Part shown: positions 1,967 through 35,741 of the stretch, in pieces
Layout: every line of letters begins with the position of its first letter
How positions within the stretch are numbered: position 1 is the first letter of the stretch
Source: an uncultured Erythrobacter sp.
GTDB taxonomy: Bacteria > Pseudomonadota > Alphaproteobacteria > Sphingomonadales > Sphingomonadaceae
Direction: 5' to 3'
DNA length: 64,000 bases
Assembly (NCBI GenBank): GCA_947501215.1
Contig: CANMUS010000003.1
Location: 434,001 to 498,000, forward strand
Made by a program: the position numbers and the translations under genes
The notes under the pieces: model-generated
What the model saw: only the letters and a program-made list of their open reading frames with translations
What the model was told of the DNA's origin: nothing
The model's database searches: none

Positions 1967-1993
1967 TACTTCGTCTCTACCGTCGGAGCTTGG

Positions 1994-2067
1994 CCTTCGA
2001 CAGGCTCAGGCTGAGCGGGTGTGGGTTTGCGGGCGAAAACATCCGCTCGTCCTGAGCCTGTCGAAGG
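1994..2067. repeat. Inverted pair of the dispersed CTTCGACAGGCTCAGG repeat
   Basis: CCTTCGACAGGCTCAGG at 1994-2010 and its exact reverse complement at 2051-2067, separated by 40 bases. The similarity continues inwards (CTGAGCGGGTG against CATCCGCTCGT), so each arm is about 25-28 bases. The pair fills most of the gatC-gatA gap. Related copies occur at 28933-28962, 34452-34481 and 34781-34810. The arrangement resembles REPIN-type paired palindromes. It could fold as an mRNA hairpin between gatC and gatA, but there is no following T-run, so it is not an obvious terminator. Confidence 0.9.
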
Positions 2068-2084
2068 ACAGTCACCACGCAACA

Positions 2085-28555: not shown

Positions 28556-28980
<425 letters not shown>

Positions 28981-34060: not shown

Positions 34061-34489
34061 TTAGCGAGGCGAGGTCACATAGGGAAGCGCTTCGAACCCC
34101 GCATCCCCCGAACGCCAGAACGCGACTCGGCCTGCCGCGATGATGGCCCAGACCATCCCGTCCCCCGCCGTCATGGCGGCATCGGTGGCGGAAGGCTCGG
34201 CGCGGCCATTGGGGTGCGAGTGGTAATAGCCGACGACCTGCGGGTCACCCGCTCGCGCCGCGCGATGGGCATCGATGAGGGTTTGCGGGTCGATTTCGAA
34301 ATGGGTCGCGGGGTGGGGATGGACGTTCGCTGCGGGGAGGATGTCGTCGATGCGTTCGCCTTCACCCAACAGGATGCCGCAGCATTCGTTCGGGTGAGCC
34401 TGTTCGGCTTCGGCAAGCAACGCCGCTTCCAAATCGCTTTGTAATCTCAAGTCCGTTCGCCCTGAGCTTGTCGAAGGGCCGCACTTCAC
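34061..34489 (-). CDS. JAMM/MPN+ metalloprotease-like protein
   Basis: 142 residues as listed, from a GTG. The JAMM motif is complete: Glu in HPNECCGILLG, HSHP in YYHSHPNGRAEPSATD with the Ser and Asp ligands. Bacterial JAMM proteins cleave small modifiers or Cys-containing peptides in sulfur carrier pathways; no sulfur-carrier gene is adjacent. About ten residues near the N terminus (CGPSTSSGRTD) are encoded by one arm of the 30-base inverted repeat, so the true start may be a TTG just after it (34450), giving about 129 residues that begin with the family core. Confidence 0.85.
   Translation of the reverse strand: MKCGPSTSSGRTDLRLQSDLEAALLAEAEQAHPNECCGILLGEGERIDDILPAANVHPHPATHFEIDPQTLIDAHRAARAGDPQVVGYYHSHPNGRAEPSATDAAMTAGDGMVWAIIAAGRVAFWRSGDAGFEALPYVTSPR
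34452..34481. repeat. Left terminal copy of 30-base inverted repeat
   Basis: TCCGTTCGCCCTGAGCTTGT at 34452-34471 continued to 34481. It is the exact reverse complement of 34781-34810. The match stops at both ends, so the unit is exactly 30 bases. It overlaps the start of the JAMM gene. Confidence 0.95.
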
Positions 34490-34502
34490 TTAGGCGCATT
34501 CG

Positions 34503-35741
34503 ATGCCGTTCTGGGCCTATATGCTACACTGTCGCGGCGGTGCCTTCTACACCGGACATACTGAAGATCTGGAATATCGGCTCGCCCAACACCAAAAGGG
34601 AGAGTTAAAAGGCTTCACCAGCGAGAGATTGCCTGTAGAGTTGGTCTGGTCCGAGGAATTTCCGTCCCGGGACGAGGCGCTTGAAACCGAACGCAGGTTA
34701 AAGGGCTGGTCGCGGGCCAAGAAAATGGCGCTTATCCGAGGCGATTGGGAGAGGATATCGAGCTTGGCGAAGAAGAAGGACGGCCCTTCGACAAGCTCAG
34801 GGCGAACGGATATTTTAAGAGGACGCGTCGATTCCAGCGGCCGCCTGGACAAGGCGCTGGCCGAAGCGAGCGGGTTGTCGCGCGAACGGGTGAAGGGGCT
34901 CATCGCGGATGGCCTGGTAGAGGTAGGCGGGAAGGTGGTGACCAGCGGGTCCGCCAAGGCCGAGGCCGGTGCGCGCTTCACCATCGCCCTCCCCCCACCC
35001 GAACCGCTGGCCGCAGAACCCCAGGACATCCCGCTCGAGATCGTCTTCGAAGACGCTGACCTGCTGGTAGTCAACAAGCCCGCAGGCATGGTCGTGCATC
35101 CCGCGGCAGGCAATCCGGACGGGACGCTGGTCAATGCCCTGCTCCACCACTGCGCGGGGCGCCTGTCCGGCATCAACGGCGTCGCGCGGCCCGGGATCGT
35201 GCATCGGATCGACAAGGACACCTCGGGCCTGCTTGTCGTCGCCAAGTCCGACGCCGCGCACGAAGGGCTGGCGAAGCAATTCGCCGACCATTCGATTGCG
35301 CGCCGCTATCTCGCCGTCTGCGCGGGCCATCCGAACCCGGCATCGGGGACCGTCGCAGGCCGCATCGGCCGCTCCGACAAGGATCGCAAGAAGATGGCCG
35401 TGCTCCCCAATGATGCCACGCGCGGCAAGCATGCGGTCACGCATTACGAGACGAAGCAGCGCCTCGACCATGCCGCGCTGATCGAATGCCGGCTCGAAAC
35501 CGGGCGAACCCACCAGGTGCGCGTTCACTGTGCGTCAATCGGTCATCCGCTATTGGGAGACCCTGTCTATGGACGCACTCCCAAGCCGCTCCGCGCGACG
35601 CTTCAGCAGCTGCAATTTGCCCGTCAGGCGCTCCACGCAGCCAGCCTCGGATTCATCCATCCTATCAGCGGCGAAAGCTTGGATTTCCGCGCCGAATTGC
35701 CGCCCGACATGCGGGAACTCATCGACGAAACCGCACGTTGA
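34503..35741 (+). CDS. GIY-YIG nuclease fused to RluD-like pseudouridine synthase
   Basis: 412 residues in one frame. Residues 1-85 are a GIY-YIG (UvrC-like, UPF0213 type) domain: FWAYMLHCRGGAFYTGHTED, YRLAQHQKGE, and a Glu in DEALETERRLKGW. Residues 93-103 (KDGPSTSSGRTD) come from the 30-base repeat. Residues 112-165 are an S4 domain (RLDKALAEASGLSRERVKGLI) and about 175-400 the synthase with GIVHRIDKDTSGLLVVAKSD (catalytic Asp237) and GRTHQVRVHC. RluD makes pseudouridines 1911/1915/1917 in 23S rRNA and is normally about 310-330 residues without a nuclease. There is no ATG, GTG or TTG between the repeat and the S4 domain, so either the fusion is used or the synthase starts at a rare codon. 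Confidence 0.85.
   Translation: MPFWAYMLHCRGGAFYTGHTEDLEYRLAQHQKGELKGFTSERLPVELVWSEEFPSRDEALETERRLKGWSRAKKMALIRGDWERISSLAKKKDGPSTSSGRTDILRGRVDSSGRLDKALAEASGLSRERVKGLIADGLVEVGGKVVTSGSAKAEAGARFTIALPPPEPLAAEPQDIPLEIVFEDADLLVVNKPAGMVVHPAAGNPDGTLVNALLHHCAGRLSGINGVARPGIVHRIDKDTSGLLVVAKSDAAHEGLAKQFADHSIARRYLAVCAGHPNPASGTVAGRIGRSDKDRKKMAVLPNDATRGKHAVTHYETKQRLDHAALIECRLETGRTHQVRVHCASIGHPLLGDPVYGRTPKPLRATLQQLQFARQALHAASLGFIHPISGESLDFRAELPPDMRELIDETAR
34781..34810. repeat. Right terminal copy of 30-base inverted repeat
   Basis: CGGCCCTTCGACAAGCTCAG at 34781-34800 continued to 34810; exact inverted copy of 34452-34481. It lies inside the nuclease-synthase reading frame, 278 bases after the nuclease start, and encodes GPSTSSGRTD there. 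Confidence 0.95.

Follow-up and report, generated by a model that had tools for sequence, protein, structure and literature searches.

Among the described systems closest to the locus reported here is the REPtron, in which a small nuclease gene, encoding a RAYT (TnpA-REP) of the HUH/Y1 kind, stands between inverted copies of a dispersed REP with a GTAG tag. Many REPs are reported per RAYT nuclease, and the whole REPtron is described as not seeming to move as one piece (PMC6006769). The CGTC REPs, which are said to include dRS3 and RPE-4/6, are reported to be apparently without a dedicated transposase (Di Nocera et al. 2013, PMC3733652).

We analyzed a stretch of 64,000 nucleotides (the window) from an uncultured Erythrobacter sp. 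(GCA_947501215.1, contig CANMUS010000003.1, positions 434,001 to 498,000), where a first-pass annotation had likened a GIY-YIG gene between inverted repeats to a REPtron with another enzyme in place of the Y1 transposase. We found this likeness supported, the flanking being recurrent and subfamily-specific; movement of the repeats by the nuclease remains inferred. The unit works like a REPtron but is not one, as neither the Y1 enzyme nor the GTAG tag was found: the enzyme has the GIY-YIG fold (PF01541), no Y1 (PF01797) match was found in the genome at E 1e-5, and the tags are CGTC/TGTC beside subfamily B of the nucleases (where our REP finder demands them) or CCGTTCG in the window type.

The window locus and its enzyme

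The single-domain GIY-YIG gene of the window, a member of subfamily A, lies at 34503..34790 on the + strand (PF01541, E 2.7e-14) and starts with the ATG at 34503, 21 bases after the left REP copy. The left type-1 REP (34452..34481, − strand) and the right one (34781..34810, + strand) belong to a dispersed family and are exact inverted copies of each other over 30 nt, as had been annotated, and the match extends to 36 nt at 94% (arms 34452-34487 and 34775-34810, outer ends 34452 and 34810). On the left, the divergent JAMM/Prok-JAB gene (34061..34489, − strand; PF14464, E 2.1e-25) starts, as its ORF is listed, with the GTG at 34489, just within the left REP arm. On the right lies a gene for an RluD-type pseudouridine synthase (34826..35741, start approximate, + strand; PF00849, PF01479). 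The nuclease frame has no stop ahead of the right REP and stays open through it into RluD, giving 412 aa.

The same running-on into the next gene is often seen (window 34503-35741, and L042, L043, L047, L049, L052, L055, L057 and L061). The next gene in frame is RluD in this genome and in G009, and JAMM in G014; in six genomes of the family, four of them without strong inverted repeats, the subfamily-A gene stands in frame before one recurring gene, which we take to be TrmJ-like. Such a frame may be a domesticated fusion or merely an open frame.

A search with the 19-nt core gave five matches in the window at ≤3 mismatches, against 0.01 expected: the two flanking the nuclease gene, two diverged copies at 1993..2068 in opposite relative orientation, and one diverged copy at 28940..28958 (− strand) inside rnpB, near its 5' end. 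The annotation had already placed the core at 1994-2067 and in rnpB, and both places were found again. The rnpB copy sits in the first internal hairpin of that RNA, presumably P3, as if inserted into a structural RNA.

The window protein was predicted with AlphaFold2 to have the GIY-YIG fold (pLDDT 91.6). The nearest solved folds are two UPF0213 (YhbQ-like) proteins, followed by Slx1 nucleases at E 0.007-0.04; judging from the titles of the matched structures alone, Slx1 cuts branched DNA. An NCBIfam search gave no named family for the protein. Residues Y6, Y16, G18, R26 and E63 are invariant in 23 aligned sequences, with the same pattern in nine subfamily-B rows. The catalytic residues of GIY-YIG nucleases are Tyr, Tyr-x-Gly, Arg and Glu, so that the alignment shows the residue pattern of a catalytically competent enzyme; activity itself is inferred.

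We then considered the structure of the repeats. We picked 45 distinct subfamily-A repeats by nothing but their inner core; in these, 94.8% of the stem cells pair, compared with 28-62% in slid controls, and 58 stem cells have both sides changed, compared with 16 in shuffles (0 of 500 as high). Two of the five covariation measures, pairs changed on both sides (5) and further pair types (12), were not above shuffles, and the rows are related, some of them coming from one genome. A symmetric duplex site could equally give compensated stem changes. A separate repeat alignment was drawn largely from the output of a finder in which a hairpin is a requirement, and its pairing therefore arises by construction. 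As single-stranded DNA, two CGTC REPs folded strongly (z -4.6 and -4.1), while the window REP folded no better than its shuffles (z -0.2 and -0.1).

Units and repeat families in the same genome

The 18-nt core occurs in 56 copies at ≤2 mismatches in the whole 3.04-Mb genome, and the reversed pattern in none. The dispersed family of the annotation was thus upheld and refined into two REP families with a common core, typed in the retrieved loci only. Within these loci, type 1 has 33 distinct copies and brackets the window nuclease only, type 2 has 24 copies and brackets the other five subfamily-A matches, and nine core copies fit neither type. The type-1 consensus ends in CCGTTCG and has neither a CGTC tag nor a CCA tail, unlike the CGTC REPs.

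A PF01541 profile search of the genome at E up to 1 gave ten matches, nine of them single-domain (some decayed) and one in a 735-aa frame that is taken to be UvrC. The UvrC-like match does not lie between inverted palindromes in this genome, whereas all nine single-domain matches do, with four repeat types. Six of the nine are bracketed by core repeats that keep one relative orientation at a spacing of 323-356 bp, and the other three, which belong to subfamily B, by CGTC-type palindromes of two further kinds. At one of these three (L036) the right copy is interrupted and the arms match over only 15 nt, giving a score of 30, below the threshold of 34. Given 56 copies, the chance of REP bracketing for a given gene is about 5e-6, and all six neighboring core-repeat pairs spaced 300-600 bp apart hold a GIY-YIG match. 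Each REP type in this genome is paired with its own nuclease lineage; this matching of lineage to REP type, and the many REPs per nuclease, are further likenesses to the REPtron.

Six units of our genome align REP to REP with sharp ends, and their flanks are mostly unrelated. Four of the six are 80-83% identical, and BLAST blocks between units span about 310-440 bp, ending at or near the REPs. In three type-2 units the likeness continues for another 35-40 bp or so beyond one end, which makes the exact limits of these units less certain. The copies are only 72-84% alike overall and therefore give no sign of recent activity; among the survey loci and our own that were compared, no near-identical copies within one genome were found (best 88%). 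The type-1 copies have about 13 nt within the palindrome in common with the subterminal sequence of the window unit itself, and for this reason the close REP pairs look like units without the gene. Seven of ten close pairs have the same relative orientation as the unit ends. Three, that at 1993-2068 and those at two other places in this genome, are opposite in relative orientation to the nuclease units.

Terminal inverted repeats thus bound the unit, as they do insertion sequences, and the coding unit with its short non-coding pairs resembles an insertion sequence with its MITEs, but no DDE or Y1 enzyme and no target duplication were seen. Unlike the REPtron as described, the GIY-YIG unit as a whole has copies at several sites, five of type 2 here, and given junctions either carry it or lack it.

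Occupied and empty junctions

The annotation had proposed that the unit was inserted between the divergent jamm and rluD genes and that close relatives should be compared for empty sites. We read the jamm-rluD junction in 30 genomes of the family, those with the best RluD matches of 78, and could score 27. The results showed a bare junction of 145-153 nt, with no REP seen, in 14 of the 27, namely in a genome of the same genus (G078) and in 13 other genera. G078 has no subfamily-A match and no repeat at ≤1 mismatch. The proposed insertion between divergent genes is supported, and with the junction bare in a genome of the same genus, the objection that the arrangement might be fixed in all relatives fails. 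Four junctions carry the unit, in one orientation in our genome and G009 and in the other in G014 and G006, and the positions differ among the four. REPs or REP relics without the gene were recognized by eye in three more (G016, G073 and G018), and in the last six the length differs for other reasons, with Ns in one of them. In our genome, the bare junction seems by eye to have had about 40 bp replaced, both usual start codons included. No target duplication was visible by eye between occupied and bare jamm-rluD junctions, which come from different species. On the tree, the units that three genera have at this junction are closely related, so that transfer of the whole region is not excluded.

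A second junction was read in 30 congeners of G133, whose genus we take to be Bradyrhizobium-like and the junction genes to be ligD and ku. There, the gene with CGTC tags on both sides was found in five genomes (G133, G229, G198, G206 and G129), the gene without tags in one (G216), a REP pair in two (G207 and G231), one tag in one (G197) and nothing recognized in 21, among them one whose sequence stops 326 bp beyond the query. For three other units of our genome (L033, L034 and L040), no clean empty site was found in the same-genus genome: at one, both flanks are conserved but the spacer is unrelated, and at the other two, only one flank aligns well. Plasmid records gave annotated examples only; in two from Sphingomonas (L291 and L292), a subfamily-A gene has rnc and era as its neighbors in one, and nrdR and an RNA methyltransferase gene in the other, so that housekeeping-gene junctions recur as sites.

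Flanking repeats across families and phyla

In the family, we used a set of 79 genomes, comprising our own, one of the same genus and one each of 77 other genera. Subfamily A (≥85 bits) is carried by 25 of the 79, and the best locus per genome scores ≥34 for a flanking inverted repeat in 19 of the 25, leaving six without a strong one. The flanking repeats vary between many of these genomes, and the two ends of one unit match each other. Core-repeat copies, counted with one core sequence only, have a median of 17 in genomes with subfamily A and 1 in those without (p 9e-5), and at least ten copies were found in 14 of 25 and 10 of 54 genomes, respectively. As the genomes are related, these p-values are not free of shared ancestry. 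Ten of the 24 repeat-rich genomes (≥10 copies) thus lack an intact subfamily-A nuclease; one of them (G007) has only broken pieces of a relative, and the other nine have none at that cut-off. The annotation had named many repeats without such a nuclease as a refutation, and to the letter this was met; REP families outliving their nuclease would explain these genomes. Y1 transposases occur in 13 of the 79 genomes, unrelated to repeat count (p 0.75), and 20 of the 24 repeat-rich genomes have none.

In other families of Pseudomonadota, we tested 60 single-domain matches, taken in order of score from the top of a list over 120 genomes; our own genome, one same-family genome, UvrC-length frames and two matches near contig ends were left out. 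For each gene we scored the best inverted repeat across it and set this against scores obtained in the same way from intervals slid along that locus. The threshold of 34 was chosen after the scores had been seen, and the within-locus control test needs no threshold. Twenty-four of the 60 loci beat every control of their own locus, and 20 score ≥34. By tree clade, scores of ≥34 were reached by 16 of 22 loci in subfamily B, 4 of 6 in A, 0 of 27 YhbQ-like genes and 0 of 5 others, that is 20 of 28 in A and B versus 0 of 32 elsewhere (Fisher p 7e-10). Every control was beaten by 18 of 22 in B, 4 of 6 in A, 2 of 27 YhbQ-like genes (weakly) and 0 of 5 others, that is 22 of 28 versus 2 of 32 (p 6e-9). 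YhbQ-like proteins share the fold, yet none of the 27 YhbQ-like genes has a strong flanking inverted repeat at a score of 34, and a general habit of small GIY-YIG genes is thereby rejected. On a tree of 138 rows, the bracketing label needs 27 changes, compared with 45 when shuffled (0 of 500 as low); this tree has few columns and many unresolved forks, its clades were read by eye, and it takes only the first 40 testable cross-phylum loci and omits L040.

A cross-phylum scan with subfamily B, using one genome per species for 84,980 species, gave at least 587 relatives in at least 591 stretches, of which the best 80 were kept, mostly from Proteobacteria and many from metagenome bins; six had too little flank. 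Among these best 80, 58 of the 74 tested loci score ≥34, compared with 54 of 5,654 control intervals, and 59 beat every control. Chance or composition is ruled out by these control intervals and by the core counts. Outside Proteobacteria, the loci of the best 80 that score ≥34 come from Planctomycetes (L213), Nitrospira, Nitrospirae, Nitrospinae, Bipolaricaulota and Omnitrophota, and one each from Anaerolineae, Planctomycetaceae, Ignavibacteria and Myxococcota scores below 34.

A REP finder blind to left-right likeness, demanding a CGTC/TGTC tag, a stem of ≥7 with ≤1 mismatch and CC, found CGTC REPs on each side of 45 of the 72 subfamily-B loci in the best 80, versus 18 of 5,436 controls, and on one side only of 20. 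In the nearest REP pairs of the 45, both tags point outward at 23 loci and inward at 11, and at the other 11 they share a strand, so the nearest REP is not always terminal or the unit not always clean. The left and right REPs of a unit resemble each other more than they resemble those of other units (0.912 versus 0.746, p 2e-4). Of 90 subfamily-B REP cores, 88 end in CCA, 66 of which also have a perfect 8-9 bp stem and a 3-5 nt loop, and 56 of the 90 have an 8 bp stem and a 4 nt loop. The repeats flanking subfamily B therefore fit the CGTC REP superfamily (CGTC/TGTC tag, 8-9 bp stem, 4-5 nt loop, CCA tail), and many subfamily-B genes are flanked by REPs with the tag, stem, loop and tail described for it (Di Nocera et al. 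2013). Thirteen chosen genomes with subfamily B hold 5 to 426 CGTC REP copies at ≤3 mismatches, six of them more than 100, with none in the reversed control. In the genome of L213 (G242), exact-match CGTC REPs were listed mostly on the + strand, and at ≤3 mismatches the strands are even (205 and 201). Co-divergence of nuclease and repeat is weak (Spearman 0.25, p 0.011), and since the loci were preselected for matching arms we do not rely on it.

REPs form the limits of the unit, which is found at unrelated places and, at orthologous junctions, is present in some genomes and absent from others. Because the nuclease gene is bracketed, in a recurrent and subfamily-specific way, and comes and goes at fixed junctions, we regard a REPtron-like mobile unit as probable, about 360 bp long and made of a single-domain GIY-YIG nuclease gene between inverted copies of its own REP, with the nuclease as the enzyme of these REPs. 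Weighing against this are the age of the copies (at most 84% alike here), the lack of a target duplication in what was seen, the ten repeat-rich genomes without an intact nuclease, the six family loci without a strong inverted repeat, the mixed tag orientations and the weak folding of the window REP. Cutting, recognition, movement and joining by repair are inferred. The nuclease would recognize its REP as a hairpin, a cruciform or a duplex and cut near the outer foot of the REP; host replication and repair would copy the bracketed segment into new places, and single REPs or close REP pairs would be non-autonomous products. Joining by repair would fit better than a DDE transposase, because no target duplication is visible and about 40 bp seem replaced at the window junction.

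GIY-YIG domains are also known in homing endonucleases, and a free-standing enzyme of this kind might cut a pre-existing close REP pair, its gene being copied in by recombination on the REP arms while another agent spreads the REPs. Close pairs oriented like unit ends do exist (seven of ten), and the ligD-ku junction has a REP pair in two genomes where others have the unit; against this, no REP was seen at the bare jamm-rluD junctions, and our genome has no match to a Y1 transposase, the only enzyme sought that might spread the REPs. We consider this explanation doubtful. It is improbable, in our judgment, that an unrelated agent spreads REPs that accumulate by these genes, with the nuclease a passenger or a domesticated cell function. 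The REP-rich genomes without the nuclease and the in-frame TrmJ-like arrangement of six genomes, four without strong inverted repeats, would suit such a passenger; two bracketed GIY-YIG subfamilies would not, given YhbQ-like genes of like size with none in 27 at score 34 (two weakly beating controls), control intervals bracketed in about 1% or less, and unit ends that match each other better than the REPs of other units.

RAYT-type (Y1) transposases might instead move the repeats, the nuclease gene hitch-hiking; for other bacteria, the published view is that GTAG REPs are mobilized by RAYTs (PMC3733652, PMC6006769). This we think very unlikely here: the lack of a Y1 match at E 1e-5 in our genome, the lack of one in most repeat-rich genomes, and the missing relation between Y1 and repeat count largely refute RAYTs as the mover, and the tags are not GTAG.

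Returning to the nuclease as the enzyme of its own REPs, we lean, without great assurance, towards a wider claim, that the two GIY-YIG subfamilies are the missing mobilizing enzymes of CGTC-type and related REPs across bacteria. They would represent a minimal mobile element of a new class: a nuclease of about 95 residues, using no HUH, DDE or recombinase chemistry, would cut the palindromes at the ends of its own unit, and host repair would do the joining. For subfamily B, the proposal fills the gap left by CGTC REPs reported without a transposase, with cutting and movement inferred. No link between GIY-YIG and REPs was found in the titles or abstracts of the literature searched, of which coverage was partial, without subscription papers or preprints. 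As a nuclease family is genetically linked to the CGTC REPs, their origin becomes directly testable, and a likely role emerges for small genes annotated only as 'GIY-YIG nuclease family protein'. If true, the proposal accounts for some of the commonest short palindromes in bacterial genomes, and it would mean that two unrelated enzyme superfamilies reached the same arrangement of REP and nuclease.
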